Below, piece after piece: positions 11,042 to 25,680 of a stretch of 64,000 nt of DNA. Source of the DNA: Candidatus Bathyarchaeota archaeon (lineage in GTDB: Archaea > Thermoproteota > Bathyarchaeia > Bathyarchaeales > Bathycorpusculaceae); NCBI GenBank assembly GCA_026014735.1, contig JAOZHT010000002.1:310001-374000 (forward strand), given 5' to 3'. The position numbers were made by a program, and so were the translations under genes. The notes under the pieces were generated by a model, which was given only the letters and a program-made list of their open reading frames with translations, had not been told where the DNA came from and made no database searches. Numbering within the stretch: the first letter of the stretch is position 1; every line of letters begins with the position of its first letter.

Positions 11042-11659
11042 TTACCTCTTTGTTTGCGCCGCAAGCATCTTTTCCGCCAGCTGCAGCTCCGAGACAGTGT
11101 TGATATTCACTGCCAGTTCCTCATCATCCATCAGGAAGATATCTTGGTCAAGCCACTCATCGCCGTAGCGTTTGCTGCCGTCGATAACGTTGATGCCTAC
11201 GGGAACCACGTCTTGGTCGTCAGCTTTGAAACTGTATTCGATGCACATGCCCAAACGCGCCTTAACCTGTAGCGGAACCGCCACCGTCAACGCGGGCTTG
11301 CCGCAGCGCATATACCGCTCCATCACCGCATCAATCATGCCGCCACGGACAAGCGGCAAATCCGCGGCTATAGCCAAAAACACACCTAGCCTAAGCGTCT
11401 GAACCGTGTAACCCATATCCGAAACGTAATCTTGTCCCGGAGTCTGGATGACTTCCACGCCAAGCTGCCGCATAAGCGCCGTTGTTTTAGGTGTAACAGC
11501 GGTTGTCGCTACAACAATTTTGTCAATTGACTTAGCCTCCTTAAGCGCCGCAAGCACATATTCGATGGCGGGTTTGCCGCAGACGGGAATAAGAGGCTTC
11601 TCCATAGGCAGCTTCATGCGGGTACCCTTGCCCCCCGCCATAACCACGGCAACTACCAT
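11042..11659 (-). CDS. cobY: Adenosylcobinamide-phosphate guanylyltransferase (CobY), copy 1
   Basis: Archaeal enzyme that transfers GMP from GTP to adenosylcobinamide phosphate, giving AdoCbi-GDP for the nucleotide loop of B12. MobA-like nucleotidyltransferase fold: VAVVMAGGKGTRM at the N-terminus binds the nucleotide, EKPLIPVCGKPAIEYV follows, and AADLPLV carries the metal-binding Asp. It overlaps cobS by 7 nt and is the last gene of dph6-cobT-cobS-cobY. A second cobS-cobY pair lies at 21.5-23 kb; the two CobY proteins look only about 30% identical, so this is an old duplication or separate acquisition. Confidence 0.85.
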   Translation of the reverse strand: MVVAVVMAGGKGTRMKLPMEKPLIPVCGKPAIEYVLAALKEAKSIDKIVVATTAVTPKTTALMRQLGVEVIQTPGQDYVSDMGYTVQTLRLGVFLAIAADLPLVRGGMIDAVMERYMRCGKPALTVAVPLQVKARLGMCIEYSFKADDQDVVPVGINVIDGSKRYGDEWLDQDIFLMDDEELAVNINTVSELQLAEKMLAAQTKR

Positions 11660-12432
11660 AACGCCACCGCCAAAAGCACAACGACGGCAACCAATCTTGA
11701 AAGCTCGTTGGTGGCGCCGAAAACGTCACCTGTCACGCCGTTAAAGTTGCGGTGAGCAAAAGCAACCATAACCAAACCCGTGATGACTGCGGCAAGCACC
11801 GCAAAGACGCCAATCCAGCCTAGCAGCGGCACCGCTATGCTAAAGGAAATCGCCAGCGCCGCCAGCAGCCGCCAGTTGCCTCCAGCGCCATGCATTGCTT
11901 GCAGAAACGGCGAGTTCATGCCTTCATGGACGGATTTGCCTGCCCAAGCCGCCACCACCATCGAAAGCTTCGCCGACAGCTCCACCACCAGCACCGCTGG
12001 GAAAATCAGGGGCACTGCGATGCCCAGGTAGATTACGCTGTCGCCCAGCGATGCAAAAGCGAAGGCTGTGATTAGGTAAGTTATCAAAGTTAAGCCGATG
12101 GCGCCTGCACCCGTAAGTTGGTCATGCATAACCTCAATCTTCTTTTCTGCGCTGCCATGCACCATGATGCCGTCGCCGAAATCCAGCAGTCCATCAGTGT
12201 GATGCAGCCCAGTCATCCAGAGCAGCAGCCCCAAAACCAAAGCGCCCACCACGAGGCTGGGCAGATACTCAATTGCAACCCACCCAAACAGGCCCGCCAG
12301 CAGCCCCAGCAGGGCGCCGATGAGGGGGAAAGCCCACATGTTGCGTGCGCAGTCCACCAGCAGGTGCTCGTCCATCTGCACTGGAAAAACGGTTAGGAAG
12401 GATAGGAGGTTTTTAAGTTGCCTAAGTACCAA
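11653..12432 (-). CDS. cobS: Adenosylcobinamide-GDP ribazoletransferase (CobS), copy 1
   Basis: Polytopic membrane enzyme that joins AdoCbi-GDP with alpha-ribazole (phosphate) to make cobalamin (phosphate). The family signatures are visible: SFLTVFPV near the N-terminus, LHHTDGLLDFGDG with the conserved acidic residues around residue 95, AKLSMV in the middle, and the C-terminal GVTGDVFGATNE. About six hydrophobic segments. Located 6 nt after cobT and overlapping cobY, so translation is probably coupled. It differs from copy 2 at 21.5 kb, though both keep all signatures. Confidence 0.9.
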   Translation of the reverse strand: MVLRQLKNLLSFLTVFPVQMDEHLLVDCARNMWAFPLIGALLGLLAGLFGWVAIEYLPSLVVGALVLGLLLWMTGLHHTDGLLDFGDGIMVHGSAEKKIEVMHDQLTGAGAIGLTLITYLITAFAFASLGDSVIYLGIAVPLIFPAVLVVELSAKLSMVVAAWAGKSVHEGMNSPFLQAMHGAGGNWRLLAALAISFSIAVPLLGWIGVFAVLAAVITGLVMVAFAHRNFNGVTGDVFGATNELSRLVAVVVLLAVALW

Positions 12433-12438
12433 GCGCGC

Positions 12439-13527
12439 TCACTTTTTCTGCATCAGTGAGGCATAATTACGTTCTATTTCCTTAAGAAGGATGCGCTTGT
12501 CAACCGCGCCGCCGCTCTTAGCCATCGCCGCTATGGAGGCTCCGCCTGCGCCCACGCCCTCCTTAACCAGCCCTGTCTCGTAGATTTGCAAACCCGGATA
12601 CTGGGAGACACCGAAATCTAGATCCGCAGCTAACACGGGAACCTCGCAGAATTGGCGGATGATGCCGCAGATGTCGCTGGTTTTATCGTGAGCTACCCAG
12701 CGGGTGGTGCCCACGGCAACGTTACATAAAGACTTTGGACTCAACGCATTAATGACTGCCAGAACAGCGGTCATCTGGGTGCCGCCCGCCATCAACACAG
12801 GCGCCTGCCGACTGCCGCCGATAACCAAGCCTGCAACAGCAGCCATCATCGGGTCACCTACAGCCGAAACCGCCTTGATAGGGTCGCCTCTGAAGCTGCC
12901 GAATTTCTCAGCTGCCGCCTTCAAACCAGCCGCAACCACCGCTTCCTTGAGGCTATGGGGATTCTGGGGAAGGGTGCTGCTGACTTTTCCATAGGCATCC
13001 ACGCCCATCGCGGTCAGCACGCCCAGCGCTGTGGTTGTGCCGCCGGGGATGGATTCGCCGATAACCAAGTAATCCGCGGCCTTGGCCAGCTGTTCACCGA
13101 CGACTTTGGCGCGTTCGATTACTTCTTCGACGTTGTCGACGGCGTCGCCGCTTCGTATGTCGCGTCCGGGGCTTCCGTTCACGTCAAGGTAGGGGATTTG
13201 GGGCTTCACTTTGACGCCGCCATTGACCACCAAGACGGGTATGTCGGCTAGATGCAGCGCCGAAGTAGTTATGAGCGCGGGGGTGGGGATGCCGTCGGGT
13301 GTGATGGGAACGCCCTGAATGCTTCGGCATCTGCCTAAAAGCAGAAGCTCAGCGTCCGCGGGAGGAGTGAAATCCGTAAAATCGGGGTTTGCGCCCGCCG
13401 CTGAAAGCCCAGGAATCTTGCCCGTTTCGGTGGTGGCTATGGTGGCGATGAAGAGGGGAGTTTTGCCTTCGATTTCATCTAGGAAGGCTTTTGCCTTCAA
13501 CTCGTTATTAGCAAATATAACATCCAT
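12439..13527 (-). CDS. cobT: Nicotinate-nucleotide-dependent phosphoribosyltransferase, archaeal CobT type
   Basis: Activates the lower-ligand base of B12 by moving phosphoribose from nicotinate mononucleotide. The protein belongs to the archaeal branch (TIGR00303-like) and not to short bacterial CobT: it has IPGLSAAGANPDFTDFTPPAD at residues 38-58 (internal), GESIPGGTTTALGVL around residue 158, AVGDPMMAAVAGLV, and VLMAGGTQMTAVLAV near 245. A C-terminal glycine-rich GVGAGGASIAAM segment ends it. It lies 12 nt after dph6 and just ahead of cobS-cobY. The base it prefers cannot be told from sequence. Confidence 0.85.
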   Translation of the reverse strand: MDVIFANNELKAKAFLDEIEGKTPLFIATIATTETGKIPGLSAAGANPDFTDFTPPADAELLLLGRCRSIQGVPITPDGIPTPALITTSALHLADIPVLVVNGGVKVKPQIPYLDVNGSPGRDIRSGDAVDNVEEVIERAKVVGEQLAKAADYLVIGESIPGGTTTALGVLTAMGVDAYGKVSSTLPQNPHSLKEAVVAAGLKAAAEKFGSFRGDPIKAVSAVGDPMMAAVAGLVIGGSRQAPVLMAGGTQMTAVLAVINALSPKSLCNVAVGTTRWVAHDKTSDICGIIRQFCEVPVLAADLDFGVSQYPGLQIYETGLVKEGVGAGGASIAAMAKSGGAVDKRILLKEIERNYASLMQKK

Positions 13528-13539
13528 GCTGGTTCAGCC

Positions 13540-14208
13540 TTACTTTGGGGTAACTTTCCACTTCTTGATTTCTAAGTACCCAAAGCCATTATCTAAGCGT
13601 TTCTTCTCCGCCTCAACAACCTCGACCTTCTGGCTAAAGCCAGGTCCATCGGTGATGACGGTGTGGTATTCGCCGCCTTCTCCGCATGGGTCCACGCCGG
13701 GTAATTTGAGGATGTCATCGTAGAATTGGCGATCCAACACGCGTCCCAGCCAATCCAAGCTGAGCTCGCGGTTGGTGCGCACGACGGTGGCTTTGAAGCC
13801 CGACTTGAGGTAGTCAAGGTAAATCTGTTTAGTATCCCCCATCCACAATGGCTTCACCGGTGTCAAACCAACTTCACGGCAGATCCTGCCCAGCCAACCT
13901 TCCTCGTGCCCCGCGACCTCATAGATGTCGCCTGTGACAAGGCCCTCTGCACCCTGCTTCTTGAAATCTGAAAGGACGGCTTTGAAGTCGGCTTCGTAGG
14001 TGGCTGGCGAGGTGGTTTTTTTTATGTGGGGTACCCCAATGGCTTTTGCTTGGGCGTCTAGGATGCCGGTGGGGATCATGTGGAAGTTGGATTTTTCCGG
14101 GTTCATCATCATCGTTAGGAGTGAGAGGACTTGGTGGCCTTGCTGGACTGCAAGGTAGTATGCGTAGGCGCTGTCTTTGCCGCCGCTCCATGAAGCTACA
14201 ACTTTCAT
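13540..14208 (-). CDS. dph6: Diphthine-ammonia ligase (Dph6)
   Basis: Final amidation step of diphthamide on elongation factor 2. The N-terminal ATP pyrophosphatase loop VASWSGGKDSAYA and the later signature DPCGEGGEYHTVITDGP, both diagnostic of Dph6/MJ0570, are intact, and the length of 222 residues is normal. It heads the operon with cobT, cobS and cobY; this link to B12 genes has no obvious functional reason and may be only co-location. Confidence 0.9.
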   Translation of the reverse strand: MKVVASWSGGKDSAYAYYLAVQQGHQVLSLLTMMMNPEKSNFHMIPTGILDAQAKAIGVPHIKKTTSPATYEADFKAVLSDFKKQGAEGLVTGDIYEVAGHEEGWLGRICREVGLTPVKPLWMGDTKQIYLDYLKSGFKATVVRTNRELSLDWLGRVLDRQFYDDILKLPGVDPCGEGGEYHTVITDGPGFSQKVEVVEAEKKRLDNGFGYLEIKKWKVTPK

Positions 14209-14465
14209 TGGTTTTTATCTCCTGAATGGTTTGGAACGTTTAAGCAGTAAATCAAGGTTTTTCTTGCCAAACATTTAGTTAACCTGCCCGCTGATAAAAC
14301 TTTGCTTGAATCTTGGGCGGTTTTCTTTATGTTTAGCAAATATTCACCCGACAATGGATGGTTTATCCATCATATTTCATATAAGGCTTACGGAAAAACC
14401 CCAGCGCCCCAACCAACCCTCAGAGACACAAAAAGGGAATTCCGCGGAAAAAACCGCATGCGCAT

Positions 14466-14879
14466 CTAAATGGTGGGGAAGAACGGCGACGGATACGCCA
14501 AACCGAAAAGCAAACCCACCACGATACTGAGCACCACAAAGATTATCCACGCCAATATCGCAATGAGGATCGCGCGTAGCCAACCCGTGTCAAAGCTTGC
14601 CTTATACACCCATATCCACGCCAGAAACGCCAGTAGGTAGGCGATTATGTAAGCAGTTGCTCCGATAAGTGCCCCCAGCAGAAGACTCGCAAGAACCATA
14701 ACGATAACGTAGATGATTGGCCCCGCCAGCGTCGCAAGCAATGCCTGCCCAAAGGTGGCTCTGCCGCCGGTGACGGCTTTCCCTGCAAGCCACACGGGAA
14801 TCGACGTTACAATCCAGATGATAATCAATTCAAGGATGAATAAAAGCAGACTTTCCAGAGACATACTCGCAAAATCCAA
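14466..14879 (-). CDS. Small four-helix membrane protein, unknown function
   Basis: 137 residues, nearly all hydrophobic, with about four transmembrane helices (LLLFILELIIIWIVTSIPVW; LLATLAGPIIYVIVMVLASL; ILAWIIFVVLSIVVGLLFGL among them). Conserved-looking loop GKAVTGGRATFGQA between helices 1 and 2. No family recognised with confidence. Flanked by about 257 bp and 150 bp without genes; at 14353-14369 in the downstream spacer there is a short dyad, ATGGAT/ATCCAT. Confidence 0.65.
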   Translation of the reverse strand: MDFASMSLESLLLFILELIIIWIVTSIPVWLAGKAVTGGRATFGQALLATLAGPIIYVIVMVLASLLLGALIGATAYIIAYLLAFLAWIWVYKASFDTGWLRAILIAILAWIIFVVLSIVVGLLFGLAYPSPFFPTI

Positions 14880-15029
14880 ACTTAAAACCTCTAAGAGTGT
14901 TCTGTTTAACGCGGTATTTATGGCTTGCTGGATTAGAGATGTGGCTAACGAGCTTGCCTAAGCAGACACCGCAGAAACCCACGCAACACTTAAAACACAC
15001 CTCTACCAGTAAACCCCAAGGTTAAAAAC

Positions 15030-15509
15030 ATGACAACAACCCCGCCGCTGCTTGAATACCTCGAAAAAAGAGGCATCACCCTGCAAAGCCTCATAGACAG
15101 CGCCCTAGAAATGTATGTGCCTCACCCCGGCATAGAAACCCCCCAGAAAGCCACCGAGCTACTCAAAGAGGAATTCCTCGATATACTCCAAGACGTCAAC
15201 GTCTCCACCCTTATCGTGGCGGCTTTCCATGCGCAGCAGGAAGCTGAAAACGGACGCATACCCGGCTTAACGGTGGAGCGCTTCATGGGCAGGCCCGGAT
15301 TGGTTGCGGATGAGCTTATCGGCATTGCAATCGCCACCTACATCGGCGGGTCACGGGGCATGTTTGAGTTTGTACGCTTCGACCAGGCAAAACCCGGCAT
15401 CCTGCGTGAGTTGCCGCCGCTTACAAACGACGCCATAGGCGCCTTGGTAGCTGGGGCATCCTCGAATGTTTATACTAAAGCCCTCAAATCCGCAGGCGCC
15501 ACCGCTTAG
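15030..15509 (+). CDS. cobZ: Alpha-ribazole phosphatase, CobZ type (PgpA-like)
   Basis: CobZ, characterised in Methanosarcina, removes the phosphate from alpha-ribazole phosphate (or cobalamin phosphate) in the nucleotide-loop pathway. The protein matches the PgpA-like CobZ pattern: VNVSTLIVAAF, then GLVADELIGIAIATYIGGSR and FVRFDQAKPGILRELPPL, followed by DAIGALVAGASSNVY. The acidic DE and D-x-x-KPG motifs of PgpA are kept. Membrane helices are weak, as in CobZ and unlike true phosphatidylglycerophosphatase. Placement close to dph6-cobT-cobS-cobY supports the B12 role; phosphatidylglycerol-phosphate hydrolysis is the alternative. Confidence 0.8.
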   Translation: MTTTPPLLEYLEKRGITLQSLIDSALEMYVPHPGIETPQKATELLKEEFLDILQDVNVSTLIVAAFHAQQEAENGRIPGLTVERFMGRPGLVADELIGIAIATYIGGSRGMFEFVRFDQAKPGILRELPPLTNDAIGALVAGASSNVYTKALKSAGATA

Positions 15510-15567: not shown

Positions 15568-16725
15568 ATGGTTCAAACCCGGCTCTGCATAGTCACGCAT
15601 ACGTTTCTGCCTCATGTGGGCGGCATAGAGAAGGTGACTAATGAGCAGAGCAAGCGGCTGCTGAAGTTGAATTATGCGCCGACGGTAGTGACTAACCGTA
15701 TTGGCACGCCCAAACGTTACAGCGTCGATGGGGTACCTGTGGAATGCTATGAATCCCTCAACACCGGTTTTCGCCTCGGCATCCCCTACTCGATTCCAAC
15801 CATAACCAGCTACCCCACCTTTGATAGAGCCGTAAAAACCAGCCAGCTTGTCCACGCCCACGGCCACCCCTACCTCACCTCGCTTGCCGCAGGCAAACTC
15901 GCCCGGTTCTACGGCAAACCCTTCGTGCTCACCCAGCATAACACCTTCATCGAATACAACAACATCTTCGACCACGTGGAACGCCTAAACGACTATTCGG
16001 TAGGCAAACAGAACCTCTCGGCCGCCGACAGAATCATCGCGATAAGCAGCGCCACCAAAGACTACGTGCTGCGGCTAGGCGCGAAGCCAAGTAAAGTTAA
16101 AGTCATCTACAACGGCGTTGACACCGCCCGCTTCAAGCCCCTGCCAGGAAAACGCGAACAAATCAGGCGTAAACATGGGATTGCGCGGGATGCAGTGGTG
16201 GTTTTGACGGTTCGGCGGCTAGTCTACAAGAACGGCATCGACACCCTGCTGGACTGCGCCAAAATCGCTGCGGAAAAGAACTCTAACATCGTGTTTTTGG
16301 CTGTCGGCAAGGGTCCTGACCTTGAAAATGTGCGTTTGGCGGTGGCGCAGATGGGGTTGGAGGCTAACTTTAAGCTGGCGGGGTTTGTCAGTGACGAAGA
16401 TTTGCCTGCATACTACAATGCTGCAGACATGTTTGTGTTGCCCTCCAAATCCGGGGAGGGATTGCCGCTGGTGGCGATGGAAGCCATGGCCTGCGGATTA
16501 CCTGTTGTGGCAACGGATGTTGGCGGCATAAAGGAAATTCTGCCGGCGGATTACGGCAAGCTTGTGGTGCCTAACCAGCCGGGTTTGCTGGCGGAGGCGG
16601 TTTTGGAGTTTGGGGAAGCGGATTTTTCTTCACGCGCCGCTGAGCTGCGGGCTCGGGTGGAGGAGCGGTTCAGCTGGGACGCAAACGTTGAAAGGCTTGT
16701 GGAAATATACGAAGAACTTATTTAA
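15568..16725 (+). CDS. Glycosyltransferase family 4
   Basis: GT-B fold glycosyltransferase that uses a nucleotide sugar to extend a glycan or lipid-linked sugar. N-terminal LCIVTHTFLPHVGGIEKVT and GHPYLTSLAAGKLAR are typical acceptor-side motifs; the C-terminal donor site reads VIYNGVDTARF, then GEGLPLVAMEAMACGLPVVATD with the Glu-rich EX7E motif. The length of 385 residues is standard. It is followed 45 nt later by a GT2 enzyme, probably in the same unit, suggesting surface polysaccharide or protein glycosylation. The sugar and acceptor are unknown. Confidence 0.85.
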   Translation: MVQTRLCIVTHTFLPHVGGIEKVTNEQSKRLLKLNYAPTVVTNRIGTPKRYSVDGVPVECYESLNTGFRLGIPYSIPTITSYPTFDRAVKTSQLVHAHGHPYLTSLAAGKLARFYGKPFVLTQHNTFIEYNNIFDHVERLNDYSVGKQNLSAADRIIAISSATKDYVLRLGAKPSKVKVIYNGVDTARFKPLPGKREQIRRKHGIARDAVVVLTVRRLVYKNGIDTLLDCAKIAAEKNSNIVFLAVGKGPDLENVRLAVAQMGLEANFKLAGFVSDEDLPAYYNAADMFVLPSKSGEGLPLVAMEAMACGLPVVATDVGGIKEILPADYGKLVVPNQPGLLAEAVLEFGEADFSSRAAELRARVEERFSWDANVERLVEIYEELI

Positions 16726-16770: not shown

Positions 16771-17508
16771 ATGACGTCAAAAGTTGAATTGGTCTCGGTC
16801 GTCATTCCGACACTCAACGAAGCGGGAACGATACTTGATGCCATTAACACAATCGACAGGTACACCACTTACCCCAAAGAAATCATCATAGTGGACGGCA
16901 ACTCCACGGATGGCACCATAGATTTAGTTAACAAAACTGGGAAATGCCGCTTAATCATCGAGCCCAGACGTGGCTACGGCTTGGCGTTGCGGACAGGTAT
17001 GAAAAACGCCAAAGGCAACATCCTCATCATGGTTGACGCCGACGGCACCTACGAGTTCAAGCACATCGACCGTCTTGTCAGCCGCTTAGTTGAGAAGGAC
17101 GCAGATATGGTTTTGGCTACACGCATGTATGACCCCAAAAAAGCCATGGGATTCCTTAACTTCCTAGGCAACAAAGCCATAACCTTCACCTATGACTTCT
17201 TCTACAGCCAGTTCCTCAGCGACACCCAATCGGGTTTCCGCGCCATCGACCGAAGCAAATATGACAGCGTAAACTTTAAGGAAACCGACATGCCCTTCGC
17301 AACCGAGATGCTTATCCAATTCGCCAGGGAAGGCTATAACATGGTTGAGATACCCACAACCTATAAGGCTCGAACTTACGGGGTCACCAAACTCAGGCCA
17401 TTCCAGTCGGGTATTCGGATTTTCACCACTATATTTAAGGGGTTCTTGGATGCAAAAACGTTTAGGGTCTGCTATGCACATTGGAAAGCGAATCGGTTTA
17501 AGCGATGA
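16771..17508 (+). CDS. Glycosyltransferase family 2, polyprenyl-phosphate sugar transferase type
   Basis: DPM1/AglD-like GT2 that loads a sugar onto a polyprenyl (dolichyl) phosphate. Visible: SVVIPTLNEAGTILDAI, IIIVDGNSTDGT (nucleotide-sugar site), MVDADGTYE (DXD-like metal site) and DTQSGFRAIDR. No C-terminal membrane helices, so it is the soluble form. The last bases overlap the following DUF1616-like gene. Confidence 0.85.
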   Translation: MTSKVELVSVVIPTLNEAGTILDAINTIDRYTTYPKEIIIVDGNSTDGTIDLVNKTGKCRLIIEPRRGYGLALRTGMKNAKGNILIMVDADGTYEFKHIDRLVSRLVEKDADMVLATRMYDPKKAMGFLNFLGNKAITFTYDFFYSQFLSDTQSGFRAIDRSKYDSVNFKETDMPFATEMLIQFAREGYNMVEIPTTYKARTYGVTKLRPFQSGIRIFTTIFKGFLDAKTFRVCYAHWKANRFKR

Positions 17509-17974
17509 AGCCGGCGTTGCAGTCGCCGTTTTTGCAGCGCTCATCATCGTAGCTTTCTGCATTGCAGGGTACTACCTGATTTATAGACCTCAACCTGAAC
17601 CCTACAACAGCATCTACATCTTAGACGCAAACAAGCAAACCACCGACTACGCCCACACCCTAATCCATAACCAAAACAGCACTTTCAGTGTCTACGTTGG
17701 CGTCGAAAACCATATGGGCGGCACCGGCACCCGCAACTATGAAGTGCAGACCAAAATCACCCAAACCTACAGTGGCTCACCCACAAACGCCACCCCAGTA
17801 GACACTTACGATGTGACGTTGGCGGACGGCGAGACCGACCTGCATCAGGTCACCGTAACCTTGAACACTCCGGGCAGCTACACTGTGGTCTTTGAGCTTT
17901 ACCGAGTCGGCGATGAGGGCGTATTGGATTTTAGGGGCTACAACTATTGCCTGCTGGACATTGAGGTAATTTAG
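17450..17974 (+). CDS. Membrane-anchored DUF1616 C-terminal-type domain protein
   Basis: One N-terminal transmembrane segment (VAVAVFAALIIVAFCIAGYY) followed by an extracellular beta domain with PYNSIYILDANKQTTDY and FSVYVGVENHMGG, which matches the soluble C-terminal half of DUF1616 proteins. Normal DUF1616 proteins carry N-terminal membrane helices as well; that half seems to exist as a separate gene at 50673-51089. I choose ATG 17450 (AAGGGG upstream), overlapping the GT2 gene by 59 nt; ATG 17474 is an alternative. The position after two glycosyltransferases suggests an envelope role. Confidence 0.65.
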   Translation: MQKRLGSAMHIGKRIGLSDEAGVAVAVFAALIIVAFCIAGYYLIYRPQPEPYNSIYILDANKQTTDYAHTLIHNQNSTFSVYVGVENHMGGTGTRNYEVQTKITQTYSGSPTNATPVDTYDVTLADGETDLHQVTVTLNTPGSYTVVFELYRVGDEGVLDFRGYNYCLLDIEVI

Positions 17975-18108: not shown

Positions 18109-19662
18109 CTATTTTTTCTTGATTTTTTTGTTCGGCACAGATAAGGGGATCGGTTTGACTTGGCTTTCCACCGATGCCATATTTGCCGCAGGGGCTTGTT
18201 TCTGTTTTTCAGCGTAGGCTTTTTCGATGGCGACGCGGTGCACGTTGTTGTAGGCGCAGAACGGAATGATTTTCTTGTCAGGTGTAATGTAGTGGACGAC
18301 GCATCGGCGGACGCGGTTAACGTCGAAGTTGTAACTATCCATAAACGCCATGCAGCCTAAAAGGAATATGCGTCGGCGGATTTTGCCCAGCGACTTATAC
18401 GTTGGGTCCATATGCATCGAGAGGATGCTCTTCATCAACGTGAAGGTTCCGACTTCCTTGGTGACCAGCAGCATATTCATCGATATCATGGCGCCCATAA
18501 ACAGGGGAGCAAGCAGCTGAACCCTGCTTTTTGATTCTGCATGCTCAGCGGTTTTGCGGATGGTGTTAAAGAAGCGTTCAAAGTTAACGAAGCGGTTAAT
18601 CGGGTACATCTTGCCCGTGTGGGGAGAAACATAAACCCAGTTAACGATGCCGCATTGTGGGCTGCAGCTGAAAAGCGGCCAGGGCTTCTGCATGAATTGC
18701 CGCATAATCTTAATCGGCGAAGTCATCACTGACATCGGGTAGAGGTCTGTGCTTTTGATTTCCCCGTTAGTTTGGCGCTCAACGTCTTCGGCGAAGCTCC
18801 ATTCACGGAAGTTCTCGCGGAAGGGGTTTTCGGTTGCTCGACCGGTGAAGGCTATGGGTTGGAAGATTAATCCGCGGACGATGTCAGTGTTTTTGGCGGC
18901 GAAGCGGATCATGTCGCCGACTTCCTCGTCGTTGAGGCTTTTCATCAGCGTGTTTACAAGGATAACTTCCATGTCGAATTTGCGGCAGACATCGATGGTG
19001 CGTAGTTTATAGTTTAAAAGTTCTCTGCCACGGATCTTCTTGTTAAAGTCCTCGTGGAAGCTATCAAAGGACAGGTAAACGATGTTTAAGCCAGCGTTTT
19101 TGAACCGCTCTGCCAACGCGGGGTCGTCTGCGATCTTCATGCCGTTAGTAGCCAGAATCGTCATGAACTTGAGTTTATGCGCTGCAGCAATGATTTCAGG
19201 CATATCCTCACGCTCACAGGGTTCCCCGCCAGAAAACAGAATTGCCGGTGGCTTAGGGTTGGCTTTAGCGGCGAATTCTAGCATGTCAAGGAGTGCCTGT
19301 TTGGTGGGTTCATAATCGGTTGATTCCTGATTGGGGAAGGTTGAGAAGCACACGGCACAGCGGAGGTTGCAGCGTTTGGTTACGTCGATGACTCCTATGA
19401 CGGTTCCTGAGGCGTGGTTTTTGCAGGTTTCACAGACGTATGGGCAACCCTCGGGGTTTTTGGGTGCTTTGAGGTCGCCTAGGTATTGGAACTGATCGTA
19501 TTTGCTCATGTGGTCAAAGATGGGTTGGCTTTGCCAGTGGGTGGCTTTGAATTCCCCGTGGTCGGGGCATTGCTTGGTGATTTGGATTTTGCCGTTTACA
19601 GTGTTAAGTTGGGCATCGATTTTCTTTTGGCATTCAGGACAGATGCTTTTGGTTTCACTCAC
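18109..19662 (-). CDS. tes: Tetraether lipid synthase-like radical SAM protein (Tes family)
   Basis: Radical SAM enzyme of the COG1964/MJ0619 family; Tes joins two archaeol chains tail to tail to give tetraether (GDGT) membrane lipids. Cysteine layout agrees: N-terminal CPEC (C8, C11) with CPDHG at C32, like the rubredoxin-type iron site; an auxiliary CPYVCETCKNH (C73, C77, C80); and the SAM cluster CNLRCAVC (C98, C102, C105) preceded by GVIDVTKR. FSGGEP follows. Length 517 is near that of MJ0619. The start overlaps the stop of the UbiA-family prenyltransferase by 4 nt, and that partner is an ether-lipid enzyme, which supports the call strongly. Another lipid-directed reaction remains possible. 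Confidence 0.78.
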   Translation of the reverse strand: MSETKSICPECQKKIDAQLNTVNGKIQITKQCPDHGEFKATHWQSQPIFDHMSKYDQFQYLGDLKAPKNPEGCPYVCETCKNHASGTVIGVIDVTKRCNLRCAVCFSTFPNQESTDYEPTKQALLDMLEFAAKANPKPPAILFSGGEPCEREDMPEIIAAAHKLKFMTILATNGMKIADDPALAERFKNAGLNIVYLSFDSFHEDFNKKIRGRELLNYKLRTIDVCRKFDMEVILVNTLMKSLNDEEVGDMIRFAAKNTDIVRGLIFQPIAFTGRATENPFRENFREWSFAEDVERQTNGEIKSTDLYPMSVMTSPIKIMRQFMQKPWPLFSCSPQCGIVNWVYVSPHTGKMYPINRFVNFERFFNTIRKTAEHAESKSRVQLLAPLFMGAMISMNMLLVTKEVGTFTLMKSILSMHMDPTYKSLGKIRRRIFLLGCMAFMDSYNFDVNRVRRCVVHYITPDKKIIPFCAYNNVHRVAIEKAYAEKQKQAPAANMASVESQVKPIPLSVPNKKIKKK

Positions 19663-20564
19663 AGCAAGAGCACTCCAGCGATTCCTTCAACTATAAGCGC
19701 AAGGGGCAGCAGCATCATAGACATGGTTACGATGCGCTCGTATTTGCGTATACTTGCAACTGTAGTTGCGGAGGTAAACAAACGTGCAGCAGAGTAGATA
19801 AGCAGCACGCTCCAAAGCAGAATTAATGGAAGATAATAAACCGAGAATCCGCCGATGAAGTAGGGCAGGGGCGCAAGCAACCCGGTTAAGAGGAAAAAGA
19901 CGCCACCGACTTTGGCTGCGCTTATGTTGCCGATTTTCTGGGGCAACGTGGGGTAACCAACTTTGGCGTCGCCTTCCACGCTGAAAATGTCGCGAAGAAC
20001 GTTGCCGCCGATGGTGCCAAACGCGATGGGGTAGAGGCTAAGCGAGGCAAGGGTAATGGTGTCCTGTACTGTTGCTTGTCCATAGATGAATGCTGTTCCG
20101 GTTAAAACGCCCATCAGGAGGTTAGCTGCGAAACCTGACTTGCGCTTGATCAGATAGGAGTAAACCAGAAGCAGCAGGGAATCTATGGCGATTATGGCGA
20201 AGGCAACCCAGTTAATGAGGACAGAAATGACTAATCCCAATGCAAAGAAAACAGCTGAAATGACGATGGCGTGCTTGTAAGATAAGCTGCCTGAAGGAAT
20301 GGGGCGTTTGGGTTTTATGACTGCGTCGCTTATGCGGTCATAGTAGTCGTTTATGGCGAATCCGCCTGATGCAATAAAAGAAAGCGAGAGAAAAGTCATC
20401 AGCAACACCACAGCCACATTGAGTGGACCCAGCAGGGTGGAGACGTCGCCGAAGTTTCCTTTAAGGATGGCAAACGCGGTTAGGACAGCTAAGCCGCCAG
20501 TCATCATCCAGTAGGGTAAACGTAGAAGAGCAACAAGTCCTCGTATCGGCGAGGAATGGCTCAT
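19659..20564 (-). CDS. UbiA-family prenyltransferase, probable digeranylgeranylglyceryl phosphate synthase
   Basis: Membrane prenyltransferase with about eight helices. First Asp-rich motif: INDYYDRISD near residue 72; second: GNVLRDIFSVEGDAKVG near residue 190, both binding prenyl diphosphate through magnesium. Archaeal DGGGP synthases add the second geranylgeranyl chain to geranylgeranylglyceryl phosphate to make the diether core. The 4-nt overlaps on both sides (epimerase upstream, Tes-like downstream) define an operon and favour lipid over quinone or haem O synthesis. Some archaeal UbiA paralogues use other acceptors, so the exact substrate is inferred. Confidence 0.75.
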   Translation of the reverse strand: MSHSSPIRGLVALLRLPYWMMTGGLAVLTAFAILKGNFGDVSTLLGPLNVAVVLLMTFLSLSFIASGGFAINDYYDRISDAVIKPKRPIPSGSLSYKHAIVISAVFFALGLVISVLINWVAFAIIAIDSLLLLVYSYLIKRKSGFAANLLMGVLTGTAFIYGQATVQDTITLASLSLYPIAFGTIGGNVLRDIFSVEGDAKVGYPTLPQKIGNISAAKVGGVFFLLTGLLAPLPYFIGGFSVYYLPLILLWSVLLIYSAARLFTSATTVASIRKYERIVTMSMMLLPLALIVEGIAGVLLL

Positions 20565-21496
20565 ATCTGTATTTTCCTGTCAGCTATGACTTCTTTGATG
20601 CTTTCTTCCAGGGTGACTTTAGGGGTCCAGTGGAGCTCTTTTTTGGCTTTGGAGATGTCAAACCAGATTGTGGTTACATCACCCTGCCATGAGACGCCAG
20701 TGGTGGTTATTTTTGTGCGTTTCTTTAGGTTGAGGATTTGCAGGATTAAGTCTGCGAGTTCAAGCACAGAAGTGGTTTTTCCTAATCCGAGGTTGTAGAC
20801 TTCGCCCTTGACGTCTGCTCTTTCGCCGAGTTGGATAAGGGCTGCGACAACATCGGATACGTGGACGAAGTCGCGGCTGTTGTTGCCTGTTCCCAGTATC
20901 TCGAGTTTATCGGGGTTTTTTGCCAGTTTGTCTAGGAAGTCGTGGATGACTCCGTGGCATCGTAGGCCATAGACATTGGCGAATCGGGTGATTACGATGT
21001 CTAAGCCGTATTGTTCACGGTACATTTGGCAGTATTCTTCGCCGATGACTTTGCTTAAGCCATAGCATGAGAAGGGGTGGAAACCGTATGATTCCGGTGT
21101 AGGAAACACGGTGGGGTTGCCGTATACGGCTGCTGAGGAGGCAAAGACCACTTTTGCGTCGTCTTTGCGGGCTTTCTCTAGCACATGGAGGGTGCCTTTG
21201 GCGTTGGTTTCGAAGTCCGCGAGGGGATTCTCCATGGAGTAGCCTACCACCACTTGGGCTGCCAGGTGATAGATGAGGTCCTGTTTTGGCTGCGCGCAGA
21301 GCGTTTTTAGGTCCAGTATGTCGCCTTTTACGAATTTCGCCTTGGGGACATCGGTGATGTTCTGCATGGTTCCGCTGGAGAGGTTATCATAAATGGTCAA
21401 GTTATCGGTTAACTGAGAGAGTCTGCTGCATAGGTGATACCCTATGAATCCTGCTCCACCAGTCACCAGTATGTTTCTGTTTTTAAGGTCAGCCAT
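20561..21496 (-). CDS. NAD-dependent nucleotide-sugar epimerase/dehydratase
   Basis: Extended short-chain dehydrogenase of the GalE type. NAD-binding ILVTGGAGFIGYHL at the N-terminus, FASSAAVYGNP with the catalytic Ser region, and the YxxxK pair in SCYGLSKV. 311 residues is normal. Likely acts on a UDP- or other NDP-sugar. It is first in the operon with the UbiA enzyme and the Tes homologue, so the sugar may end up on a lipid head group; this is inference. Divergent from cobS copy 2 with only 50 bp between. Confidence 0.85.
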   Translation of the reverse strand: MADLKNRNILVTGGAGFIGYHLCSRLSQLTDNLTIYDNLSSGTMQNITDVPKAKFVKGDILDLKTLCAQPKQDLIYHLAAQVVVGYSMENPLADFETNAKGTLHVLEKARKDDAKVVFASSAAVYGNPTVFPTPESYGFHPFSCYGLSKVIGEEYCQMYREQYGLDIVITRFANVYGLRCHGVIHDFLDKLAKNPDKLEILGTGNNSRDFVHVSDVVAALIQLGERADVKGEVYNLGLGKTTSVLELADLILQILNLKKRTKITTTGVSWQGDVTTIWFDISKAKKELHWTPKVTLEESIKEVIADRKIQI

Positions 21497-21546: not shown

Positions 21547-22386
21547 ATGTCGCCGATGAAAGCTATAAAAACTTTTAGGGATTTGCTGTCTTTCCTAACC
21601 ATCATCCCAGTTGGGGGAAAAGAGGACTTCATATTCACCACTGCATCAAACATGTGGCTTTTCCCCGTCATCGGCGGCTTCATCGGGCTGCTAGCTGGAC
21701 TGTACTATATGGCTTCAAGCGCATTAGTGGGATATCTGCTTAATCTGGCCACGGTTTACCTGTCATTGCCCACGCTTTTCTTGGGAACAGCCATTCCCGC
21801 AGCCATGACGCTGGCGTTTCTTTTGGTCATCACTGGCTTGCAGCACTTCGACGGCTTAATCGACCTTGGCAACGCTCTGGGCCTACGCAACCTCCATGAC
21901 CGCAAAATGAAGGCGCACGCATGGACAGTGTCATATGCAGGCGCAGTGTTGGCTTTGGCAGTGGAGTTTCTGGCGTTCCTGGGATTATTTTTGATTAATC
22001 CGCTTTACGGGTTTGCCGCGATTGTGCTAGCAGAGGTCTCTGCGAAGCTATCGATGGTCACCATCGTCTGGATAGGTAAACCCTCGCATAAGGGCTTAGG
22101 CTCGATTTTCCTTGCCAAAGCCAAAAAACCCCTCAACGCTGCAGCTTACGCCTTTTCGGCGCTGATTGTCTTTGCCGCCTTTTACTTCACAGGCAACACA
22201 CTTCTGGGGTTAGCGTCAGTGGGGTTAGTCTTCGCCAGTGTACCCGTGGCGTTTGCCATGAGCAGGGTTTCCAACAGCGTTTTCGGCGGGGTTTCAGGCG
22301 ACATGATTGGGGCAACCAACGAGGTGGCAAGGATGGTTGCGTTGCTGGCTTTTGCGGGGCTGCTTTGGGGGCTGACGCTTTGGTGA
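21547..22386 (+). CDS. cobS: Adenosylcobinamide-GDP ribazoletransferase (CobS), copy 2
   Basis: Second CobS. Signatures: LLSFLTIIPVGG, LQHFDGLIDLGNALG with the acidic residues, AEVSAKLSMV and GGVSGDMIGATNEVARM. About seven hydrophobic segments. The stop TGA overlaps the GTG of cobY as GTGA. Compared with copy 1 it is clearly diverged along its whole length, so it is not a fresh duplicate. Two cobS-cobY pairs in one genome region could serve different lower ligands or different growth conditions. ATG 21556 is an alternative start. Confidence 0.88.
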   Translation: MSPMKAIKTFRDLLSFLTIIPVGGKEDFIFTTASNMWLFPVIGGFIGLLAGLYYMASSALVGYLLNLATVYLSLPTLFLGTAIPAAMTLAFLLVITGLQHFDGLIDLGNALGLRNLHDRKMKAHAWTVSYAGAVLALAVEFLAFLGLFLINPLYGFAAIVLAEVSAKLSMVTIVWIGKPSHKGLGSIFLAKAKKPLNAAAYAFSALIVFAAFYFTGNTLLGLASVGLVFASVPVAFAMSRVSNSVFGGVSGDMIGATNEVARMVALLAFAGLLWGLTLW

Positions 22387-23000
22387 TTTCCGCGTTGATT
22401 ATGGCTGGCGGCAGAGGCAGCCGCATGGGGTTGCCTACGGAAAAGCCGATGCTGCCGTTTCTGGGCAAGCCTCTACTGGACTGGGTTGCCCAAGCCGTAA
22501 AGTCAGCCAGCAAAGTCGGCGAGTTCTACGTGATAACCAGTCCCAACACTCCCCAAACCGAGTTGCACTGCCAAAAGATGGGCTACAGGTTTGTGCGCAC
22601 CGACGCCAACGGCTACCATAACGATCTGCGGCAGGCAGTGACCAAGCTGGGCTGGATGGGACCGATTTTAACGATGCCGTCTGATGTGCCAGCCATCACC
22701 GGAGCGGTTCTGGATTGGGTAGTCGGCGAGTTTGAGGTCTGCGGCAAAGATTTCTTGGCGGTGTTTGTGCCCATCGAGAAGCGCCTGAGCCTTGGATTGT
22801 CGATTTCCAGCACCGACGAGTATGGGGGCGTGTGGTATGCGGTTTCAGGCGTCAACGTCATCAACGGAGCCAAAGTGCTCGGTGAAGGCAAAGTGGAGAC
22901 TGCAGCGATAATCACGGAGGAAACCGAAGTGGTCCTCAACGTGAATACAACTACGGACTTAGAAATCGCCAGGCAACTTATGCAGAAAAACCAGCCGTAG
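22383..23000 (+). CDS. cobY: Adenosylcobinamide-phosphate guanylyltransferase (CobY), copy 2
   Basis: Second CobY. N-terminal ISALIMAGGRGSRM and TEKPMLPFLGKPLLDWV are the nucleotide-binding and transferase motifs; TMPSDVPAI is the metal-site region. I start it at GTG 22383, which overlaps the cobS stop by four bases and gives the family's normal N-terminus; the upstream start at 22365 adds residues inside cobS. The gene is followed 30 nt later by the TATA/G-tract motif that also follows cobY copy 1. Confidence 0.82.
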   Translation: MISALIMAGGRGSRMGLPTEKPMLPFLGKPLLDWVAQAVKSASKVGEFYVITSPNTPQTELHCQKMGYRFVRTDANGYHNDLRQAVTKLGWMGPILTMPSDVPAITGAVLDWVVGEFEVCGKDFLAVFVPIEKRLSLGLSISSTDEYGGVWYAVSGVNVINGAKVLGEGKVETAAIITEETEVVLNVNTTTDLEIARQLMQKNQP

Positions 23001-23309: not shown

Positions 23310-24737
23310 GTGAGCATCCTAAGCCACGAAACATTCTGGAACGCCATCGTATCCATGCCCATGACCAAGCGGATGCTCCAGCTTTCACTCAAAAAATGCC
23401 CCGGCTGCGGCAGAACCGTGTTGGAGGCGGCGCTGGATGACTACGGCGGCAGAACCGACCGCAGATGCGAAAAATGCAGCAGCCTCTACAGCCAAATCAT
23501 CGCTTTCTGGATAGAGTTCCTGCGCCGCGCACTGGGTTTTAAGCGTGCCAAAGTCGAGAAGCTGCTAACTGACCGCTATGCACGCAACGCCGTGCTTAAC
23601 CTGGTTGAGTCTTTCGCGTATTTCGGCATTAAGAAGCCGATGTCTCTTGTTGCGCCTTTCCTTGTAGTTTGGGACTTCACGCATCGCTGCAATTTGCGGT
23701 GCAAACACTGCTACAGCAACAGCGGCGAACCCGACGCAGACGAATTAACCACCCAGCAGGCGCTAAAGGTCGTTGACCAGCTTGCCGACGCCCACGTGAC
23801 CGCTCTGGCTTTCAGCGGCGGCGAACCCCTCACTCGACCCGACTTCTTCACCGTAGCAAAACATGCCTCTGACCGAGGCCTATACGTGTCCCTTGCCTCC
23901 AACGGCACGCTTCTCAGCAAGGAAAACGTAGCTAAAATCAAAGCTGCAGGCGTCAACTACATCGACATCTCCATCGACGGCGCAACAGCCAAAACCCACG
24001 ATGACTTCCGAGGTGTCCCCGGAGCCTACGACCGCGCCGTTGCAGGGCTCAAGAACTGCATAGAAGCTGATATCTGCGCCTGCATCGCCACCACCGTGGG
24101 CAAAAACAACATGTCAGAGCTACCGGGCATCATTGACTTAGCCGAGGAACTGGGCGTGGAGCGGTTCACCTACTTCAACTTCATACCCGCTGGACGCGGC
24201 AAACAGCATGCTGACCAGGACCTCTCCGCGCAGGAACGCGAGGACGTAATGCGTTACCTGCTTAACCGCATGTCGGCAGGCTGCAAAACCACCATCCTCG
24301 CCACCGCCCCGCAGCTTGCACGGGTTGCCGCGCAGTGCCAAGGCGAATCAGGCACCGGCGAAGTCACCATGGCGCTGGCGCACATGCAAACCGTCAAAGT
24401 CACCAAAAAAGCCGTGCCGCTGGGCGAGTTCATAGGCGGCTGCGGCGCTGGACGGCTCTACTGCGCCATTTCCCCACGCGGCGACGTACGCCCCTGCGTG
24501 TTCCTACCGGTGGATGTGGGCAACCTAAAAGAACGCACCTTCCGCGACATCTGGCTAAACGCCCCGCTGTTCAATGCCTTCCGAAACCGAGACAACCTCA
24601 AAGGCAGCTGCAGCAAATGCACCTACAAGTACATCTGCGGCGGATGCAGAGCCCGGAGCGCGGCTTATCATAACGGCGACACCCTCAACGGCGACCCCGG
24701 GTGCCTGCAGGGAGTGAAGAATAGAAATGGCGCCTAA
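23310..24737 (+). CDS. Radical SAM/SPASM protein with N-terminal zinc ribbon
   Basis: Radical SAM enzyme. The N-terminal 50 residues hold CPGCGR and CEKCSS, a likely zinc ribbon or rubredoxin-like site. Then WDFTHRCNLRCKHCYSNSGE provides the SAM cluster, followed by FSGGEPLTRPDF. The C-terminal part has the SPASM-type cysteines (GRLYCAISPRGDVRPCVF; CSKCTYKYICGGCRAR) for auxiliary clusters. Proteins of this shape modify peptides or haem precursors (AhbC/AhbD are archaeal relatives), but I cannot choose. It starts with GTG and overlaps the DUF362 gene by 11 nt, so the two probably work together. Confidence 0.8.
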   Translation: MSILSHETFWNAIVSMPMTKRMLQLSLKKCPGCGRTVLEAALDDYGGRTDRRCEKCSSLYSQIIAFWIEFLRRALGFKRAKVEKLLTDRYARNAVLNLVESFAYFGIKKPMSLVAPFLVVWDFTHRCNLRCKHCYSNSGEPDADELTTQQALKVVDQLADAHVTALAFSGGEPLTRPDFFTVAKHASDRGLYVSLASNGTLLSKENVAKIKAAGVNYIDISIDGATAKTHDDFRGVPGAYDRAVAGLKNCIEADICACIATTVGKNNMSELPGIIDLAEELGVERFTYFNFIPAGRGKQHADQDLSAQEREDVMRYLLNRMSAGCKTTILATAPQLARVAAQCQGESGTGEVTMALAHMQTVKVTKKAVPLGEFIGGCGAGRLYCAISPRGDVRPCVFLPVDVGNLKERTFRDIWLNAPLFNAFRNRDNLKGSCSKCTYKYICGGCRARSAAYHNGDTLNGDPGCLQGVKNRNGA

Positions 24738-25680
24738 AGCGGTCAAAATCAGCCGTGCAGCAGACGATGTAGGCGACATCATAAAAGAAGCCATCAGCAA
24801 AGCGGGGCTACGCGGGAAAAAGTGCATTTACATTAAGCCTAACCTGAGCCACCCTGAGTATCTCCCCGGCGTCGTCACCAGCCCCGACGTCATCCGCCAG
24901 GTTGTGTCGCAGCTGCGCGATGGCAACAGCGAGGTTGTGGTGGGTGAATCCAACGGCATCAACTATCCCTGCTGGAGCGCTTTTGAGGGAACCGGCGCCA
25001 AGGCAGCCGTGGAATCCGCAGGCGGCACCGCAGTCAACCTCAGCGAGGATAAGGTGGTGGAAGTTAAATTCCCAACCAGCGGACCATTAAAGCGGCTGTA
25101 TTTGCCCAAAGTGGTGGTGGACGCCGACGCCATCGTCGATTTGCCCCTGATGAAAACCCATGAGTTCATGACTTACACTGGGGCGCTCAAAAACCTCTTC
25201 GGCTGCATCCCCAGCAACCGCCGCATCTACCTTCACCCGTATCTGCCCGAAGTCTTCTATCGCCTCTACACCGTCCTAAAACCCGACTTAACCATCATGG
25301 ATGCACGCATAGGCATCGAAGGCAACGGACCCACCAAGGGCAAACCCAAGAAGATGGGGTTGTTCCTCACGGGCAACGACGCGTTGGCGGTGGATATCGT
25401 GGCTGCGCAGGTTATGAGGCTTGACTGGAAGAAAACCTACCTTAAATACGTCGCTGACCGCGCGGGCTTTGATGGCGACGCTGTGCAGGTTGAGGGGTTG
25501 CCGGTGGAGTCGGTTGCGAAGCGTTTTGAGCTGCCAAACATCGACTTGCCCGTTAAGATGCAGATGATGATTTACCAGCATGAATACGCGACTAAGCTGA
25601 TGTTCTGCTCACTCGACATTATCCATCTGTTCCAGAGGATAACGAAGGCATACCGTAAAGAACCAATCCAGCTCGTATAG
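24727..25680 (+). CDS. DUF362 family protein
   Basis: DUF362 domain protein of 317 residues without the ferredoxin cysteines often fused to this domain. Conserved parts: YIKPNLSHPEYLPGVVTSPD near the N-terminus, VVVGESNG, LPLMKTHEFMTYTGALKNLFG in the middle and MDARIGIEGNGPTKGKPK towards the end. Function of DUF362 is not established; it often occurs beside iron-sulphur or radical SAM proteins, as here. Confidence 0.8.
   Translation: MAPKAVKISRAADDVGDIIKEAISKAGLRGKKCIYIKPNLSHPEYLPGVVTSPDVIRQVVSQLRDGNSEVVVGESNGINYPCWSAFEGTGAKAAVESAGGTAVNLSEDKVVEVKFPTSGPLKRLYLPKVVVDADAIVDLPLMKTHEFMTYTGALKNLFGCIPSNRRIYLHPYLPEVFYRLYTVLKPDLTIMDARIGIEGNGPTKGKPKKMGLFLTGNDALAVDIVAAQVMRLDWKKTYLKYVADRAGFDGDAVQVEGLPVESVAKRFELPNIDLPVKMQMMIYQHEYATKLMFCSLDIIHLFQRITKAYRKEPIQLV

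Follow-up and report, generated by a model that had tools for sequence, protein, structure and literature searches.

A 64,000-nucleotide stretch from a Candidatus Bathyarchaeota archaeon (contig JAOZHT010000002.1, positions 310,001 to 374,000 of the forward strand; hereafter the window) carries on its minus strand a three-gene operon for a sugar epimerase, a UbiA-family prenyltransferase (UbiA2), and a radical S-adenosylmethionine (SAM) enzyme of the Tes family (Tes2). Tes2 and UbiA2 form separate, well-supported subfamilies that exist beside retained canonical copies. The reading that we tentatively favor, at slightly less than an even chance, is that the operon belongs to a lineage-specific second ether-lipid pathway leading to a distinct ether lipid that either spans the membrane or is macrocyclic and that probably carries sugar.

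The operon lies in a 2.9-Mb assembly that is 99% complete (GCA_026014735.1), and its genes run head to tail. The first encodes an extended short-chain dehydrogenase/reductase (SDR) similar to UDP-glucose 4-epimerase (20561..21496, minus strand; 311 residues; PF01370, 187 bits); it is followed by UbiA2 (19659..20564, minus strand; 301 residues, predicted all-helical; Pfam PF01040, 109.5 bits) and by Tes2 (18109..19662, minus strand; 517 residues, GTG start; matches to NCBIfam NF045702 and PDB 7tol). An earlier note on this DNA had described four-base overlaps between the three genes, and both are present in the open reading frame coordinates and at the junctions as read in the sequence: ATGA at 20561-20564 combines the stop of the epimerase with the start of UbiA2, and GTGA at 19659-19662 sets the GTG start of Tes2 over the stop of UbiA2. 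This arrangement is conserved. UbiA2 is directly upstream of Tes2 in all 54 loci in which the contig reaches upstream, and its stop overlaps an ATG, GTG, or TTG (NTGA) in 46 of them, so the adjacency is not due to chance. The same scan found no UbiA gene near canonical tes in 25 loci, some of which have short flanks.

Among 251 genomes of the class, 60 full-length Tes2 proteins were found with scores of at least 742 bits, whereas all other matches, apart from fragments at contig edges, score 484 bits or less. Several of the Tes2 search matches contain one internal stop; the open reading frames called at those loci are full-length. Tes2 is confined to two families, Bathycorpusculaceae (f1) and Bathyarchaeaceae (f6), and within the reach of two peptide patterns it was not found outside Bathyarchaeota in ∼85,000 species. 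In Bathyarchaeaceae the genes for a GT4 glycosyltransferase, a DUF1616 protein, the SDR, UbiA2, and Tes2 follow one another on one strand. The module is also carried by Bathyarchaeum tardum (locus L131), which is cultivated in enrichment at 37 °C and bears an S-layer, with a sheath made of protein or polysaccharide as its outermost layer (PMC10477458).

The operon is not the core lipid pathway of this organism, as the core Tes and a gene similar to digeranylgeranylglyceryl phosphate synthase (DGGGPS) are located elsewhere in the genome. A search with the Tes model returned two members, a canonical Tes at C4:224291 (656 bits) and the operon copy, which passes the NF045702 cut-off of 450 bits narrowly with 459 bits. 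The two are 38% identical, and because the canonical protein is present, the operon copy is a second, divergent Tes. The genome holds four UbiA genes. One (L050:9222-10109) is DGGGPS-like and 40% identical to the M. jannaschii enzyme MjDGGGPS over 241 tree columns; UbiA2 is 27% identical to this DGGGPS-like protein. Geranylgeranylglyceryl phosphate (GGGP) synthase is present in 217 of the 251 genomes, but no match to its family, PF01884, was found in the genome of the window or in seven congeneric genomes. A role for UbiA2 as a replacement for GGGP synthase, which this gap suggested, was rejected because most Tes2-bearing genomes, including those of Bathyarchaeaceae, have the synthase.

The earlier note had also credited the Tes homologue with the rubredoxin-like, auxiliary, and SAM cysteines of MJ0619, and the alignment bears this out. 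Tes2 has a rubredoxin-like site (C8-x2-C11-x20-C32-x2-H35), ligands for an N-terminal cluster (C73/C77/C80/H83), the radical SAM motif (C98-x3-C102-x2-C105), and ligands for a C-terminal cluster (C337/C454/C469 and M438) together with Y458. All of these metal ligands, along with the equivalents of Met439 and Tyr459, align with MJ0619 (7tol) and are invariant in 31 of 31 Tes2 sequences. The ligands of the rubredoxin-like iron and of all three clusters are those described for MJ0619 (PMC9433317), with the three C-terminal cysteines assigned here via the alignment. The match between Tes2 and 7tol is strong at the level of sequence (phmmer E of 1.9e-109) and fold. An AlphaFold2 (AF2) model built from 44 sequences (pLDDT of 85.6) matches 7tol over its full length (Foldseek E of 9e-48, TM scores of 0.83/0.87 with 0.87 by target, 502 columns, 37% identity). 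From its ligands and predicted fold, we infer that Tes2 carries out radical C–C joining of saturated chains.

The characterized Tes proteins, also called GDGT-MAS (MJ0619, MA_1486, and Saci_0703), are the closest known counterparts of Tes2, and the fixed differences from canonical Tes are few. Ten columns are fixed differently between 31 Tes2 and 22 canonical Tes sequences, among them Ala for His440, Asn for Thr342, and Ile for Thr193. In a tree rooted by midpoint, Tes2 is a single clade (n = 31, SH-aLRT of 100) outside the canonical bathyarchaeial and methanogen Tes and MjTes. In Tes2-bearing genomes, the canonical Tes1 falls with MjTes and the Tes proteins of methanogens instead of with Tes2, and unlike these proteins Tes2 is always encoded behind its own UbiA.

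On its scores, UbiA2 does not belong with the quinone or heme enzymes, a grouping that the earlier note had named as an outcome that would refute its reading. It scores 162 and 154 bits against the NCBIfam models for archaeal DGGGPS-type enzymes and is far below the cut-offs of the heme O synthase model CyoE/CtaB (53 versus 210 bits), ubiA_proteo (44 versus 275 bits), and ubiA_other (51 versus 181 bits); the score for ChlG, the chlorophyll synthase, is 80 bits and also under its cut-off, and UbiA2 has no photosynthetic context. The AF2 model (pLDDT of 93.1) has its nearest fold in DGGGPS (7bpu/6m31; E of 1e-12 and TM score of 0.85 by target for 7bpu), with 4tq3 next at an E of 1e-6. Equivalents of N62, D66, and D70 of motif 1, of Y125, and of D180 and D187 of motif 3 of MjDGGGPS are all retained. 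The phylogeny, which the earlier note had proposed as a comparison with DGGGPS, gives a more divided answer. UbiA2 is a clade of its own (support 100/99), but its deeper joins, including that with DGGGPS, are unstable between two trees, and the DGGGPS signature E176/K179/D183 is absent: it is Asn/Arg/Ser in 40 of 40 UbiA2 sequences, Ser195 of UbiA2 occupying the position of D183, whereas the E, K, and D are kept in every DGGGPS row compared. UbiA enzymes group by acceptor, and a D183A substitution strongly lowers the activity of MjDGGGPS (PMC9385802). It appears, with moderate confidence, that the acceptor of UbiA2 has changed, probably to one other than GGGP.

The surroundings of Tes2 are conserved as well. 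On the plus strand of the window, a divergent CobS-family gene (CobS2, 21547..22386; TIGR00317, 110.1 bits against a cut-off of 110) is transcribed divergently from the operon, 50 bp from the epimerase start, and overlaps a gene for a MobA/CobY-like nucleotidyltransferase (NTPT2, 22365..23000; PF12804, and TIGR00454 at 126.8 bits, under the cut-off). On the other side of the operon, also on the plus strand, are genes for a DUF1616 protein whose N-terminal segment is hydrophobic (17471..17974; PF07760, 48.7 bits), a GT2 glycosyltransferase similar to AglJ and dolichol-phosphate sugar synthases (16771..17508; PF00535), and a GT4 glycosyltransferase (15568..16725; PF00534/PF13439). Across 30 Tes2 loci with full flanks, CobS2 is found near Tes2 in 30, NTPT2 in 29 (within 7 kb), DUF1616 and GT4 in 28 each, and GT2 in 26; none of the five is found near canonical tes in 14 loci. 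This contrast is partly taxonomic because all 14 canonical loci come from methanogens or other Euryarchaeota. The epimerase is best matched in the PDB by GalE-1 of Archaeoglobus fulgidus (3ehe, E of 3.8e-56), is below the cut-off of the GalE equivalog (172.6 versus 262.3 bits), and has the YxxxK motif of extended SDRs, read as SCYGLSK.

In the second ether-lipid pathway that we favor, UbiA2 would attach a prenyl group, probably geranylgeranyl, to an acceptor that is probably not GGGP, and the chains would then be saturated by the ordinary reductase of the cell. By radical SAM chemistry, Tes2 would abstract hydrogen atoms from the methyl ends of these saturated chains and join the chains through its C-terminal 4Fe-4S cluster, as Tes does; the resulting core would span the membrane or be macrocyclic. 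A nucleoside diphosphate sugar would come from the epimerase, and the neighboring GT4 and GT2 enzymes would place it on the lipid. Counting in favor of this pathway are the canonical Tes1 and DGGGPS-like genes that the bearers keep, the strong clade support of both subfamilies, the constant adjacency of UbiA2 and Tes2, the complete ligand set and matching fold of Tes2, the altered motif in a UbiA2 whose fold is nearest to DGGGPS, and the conserved neighbors, with CobS2 tracking Tes2 across genomes. The earlier note had put forward a link between core assembly and head-group supply. The operon behind this idea is real and conserved, but the core enzymes are encoded elsewhere, UbiA2 lacks the DGGGPS signature, and the epimerase is not constant.

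Several observations weigh against a second pathway of this kind. The epimerase is present at 51 of 54 Tes2 loci and missing in L122, L123, and L133, where CobS2 adjoins UbiA2; its link to Tes2 is weaker than that of UbiA2. The change at D183 need not abolish or redirect the activity of UbiA2, since chlorophyll synthase, an active prenyltransferase, has Ser or Ala at this position (Ser in PDB 9sau). Tes2 may act on ordinary archaeol, as only the 10 fixed columns separate it from canonical Tes. Joint inheritance with the cobamide genes in one block may account for the gene order, because bearers of Tes2 also have CobS1, the CobS that lies beside CobT, more often (10 of 10 bearers versus 3 of 16 non-bearers).

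Among the alternatives, isoenzymes deserve the most attention, although we consider them unlikely: Tes2 and UbiA2 would duplicate Tes1 and DGGGPS and yield the same glycerol dialkyl glycerol tetraether (GDGT) core, in different conditions or elsewhere in the membrane. All catalytic residues of Tes are kept in the same fold, and UbiA2 is nearest to DGGGPS. Weak paralogues of the same reaction also exist: Methanosarcina acetivorans has, like the bearers of Tes2, a second Tes beside a working one, and expression of this protein, MA_1114, yielded no more than traces of macrocyclic archaeol (PMC8941075). Unlike Tes2, the Methanosarcina Tes homologues in our tree, which leaves out MA_1114 itself, fall on the canonical side and have no UbiA nearby. 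Isoenzymes sit poorly with the loss of the DGGGPS signature in every UbiA2, with the long separate stems of both subfamilies, and with a UbiA2-Tes2 pairing that is constant and extends to no other core genes.

Slightly less probable is that the operon supplies a dedicated tetraether or diether anchor for a lipoglycan or surface glycan, which GT4, GT2, and the DUF1616 protein would build on it. The conservation of these three genes around Tes2 and the S-layer and sheath of B. tardum, a bearer of Tes2, would fit such a product. GT2 scores 154 bits against the AglJ model (cut-off of 325 bits), and its best PDB match is 5mlz, a dolichol-phosphate mannose synthase (E of 2.6e-9). The specificities of both glycosyltransferases are only predicted, though, and no oligosaccharyltransferase, flippase, or polymerase was recognized among the conserved neighbors. 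DUF1616 was rejected as a marker of the module, being multi-copy across the class and present in genomes that lack Tes2.

A more far-reaching proposal, which we regard as doubtful, brings in CobS2 and NTPT2. Here the product would be a bathyarchaeial core lipid of a class not yet described, in whose assembly UbiA2 acts on a non-GGGP acceptor, Tes2 joins the chains, CobS2 and NTPT2, diverged from cobamide assembly, activate and transfer a phosphorylated head group, and the epimerase and glycosyltransferases add sugar. CobS2, together with the Bathyarchaeaceae CobS near Tes2, forms a clade apart from CobS1, and the conserved Asp motif GDG of CobS1 is GNA in CobS2. Among 26 genomes tested, CobS2 is present in all 10 that bear Tes2 and in none of the 16 that lack it; each bearer has two CobS proteins, whereas the others have none or one, always with CobS1-like scores. 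This count is not an independent test because the genomes are related. Our first view of the cobamide neighbors as mere gene order was dropped, and CobS2 is kept as a possible part of the module because it is a separate clade that tracks Tes2. Genes of the cobamide nucleotide loop (CobS1, CobT, and CobZ) are found at 11653-15509 of the window, near the lipid module.

It is improbable that Tes2, acting on isoprenoid lipids made by UbiA2, performs another radical reaction, such as methylating the chains, closing a ring, or bridging the two chains. Tes2 has a clade-specific Ala439 in place of the His found in all 22 canonical Tes, next to the Met that serves the C-terminal cluster as a labile ligand; this could hint at altered chemistry, but the ligand set and fold of Tes2 are those of Tes. 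The bridging enzyme Gms, the glycerol monoalkyl glycerol tetraether synthase, carries a C-terminal SPASM domain (PMC11186832); assignment of Tes2 as a Gms was rejected because a Pfam search found no SPASM domain in it. Prenylation of a corrinoid or heme intermediate by UbiA2, in the manner of chlorophyll synthase and with the operon as part of the cobamide genes, is very improbable: motif 3 of UbiA2 (D-x2-S-x3-D) is that of 9sau, a single clade of UbiA2 and ChlG is not rejected (p-AU of 0.48), CobS1, CobT, CobZ, and CobS2 are all nearby, and CobS1 is more frequent in bearers than in non-bearers, but UbiA2 scores about twice as high against DGGGPS-type models as against ChlG and has a DGGGPS-like fold, and Tes2 has the fold of a lipid enzyme.

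The novelty of the operon, which the earlier note had suggested, holds in part. In the open-licence literature we found no description of two Tes, or of a UbiA-Tes operon, in Bathyarchaeia, nor of the UbiA-Tes2 pairing, the subfamily split, or the epimerase. Linkage of Tes to another enzyme of the lipid core is as such not new, since a cluster of geranylgeranyl reductase (GGR), ferredoxin, and Tes is known from M. acetivorans (MA_1484-1486; PMC8941075); there the partner is a reductase rather than a UbiA, and no sugar epimerase is described.

In work on sediment and climate proxies, GDGT producers are recognized in genomes by their Tes homologues. With a Bathyarchaeia-specific Tes subfamily and its own UbiA beside the ordinary Tes, a tes match in this class does not necessarily point to the ordinary core lipid. 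Bathyarchaeia are abundant archaea of sediments, and the Tes2 module is a concrete candidate for a source of lineage-specific lipids. The enriched B. tardum is an organism in which this prediction can be examined; the word "lipid" is absent from its description (PMC10477458).

Some further observations concern other UbiA genes and the flank of the operon. The DGGGPS-like UbiA at L050 is only 36% identical to the DGGGPS-like protein of a congener and groups with MjDGGGPS and haloarchaeal DGGGPS, not with the other bathyarchaeial ones, and it is possible that it reflects gene replacement. Two other UbiA genes of the genome had branches too long for placement in the first tree. Locus L049 (8975-10882) has two adjacent UbiA genes that are divergently transcribed; one belongs to the PRK12871 family (368 bits), and the other has no NCBIfam match at an E of 1e-15. 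Beyond NTPT2, at 23310-25680 of the window, a gene for an AhbD/NirJ-type radical SAM/SPASM protein, which stays below every cut-off shown, overlaps one for a DUF362 protein; a radical SAM/SPASM protein of this type is found near Tes2 in 13 of the 30 loci.

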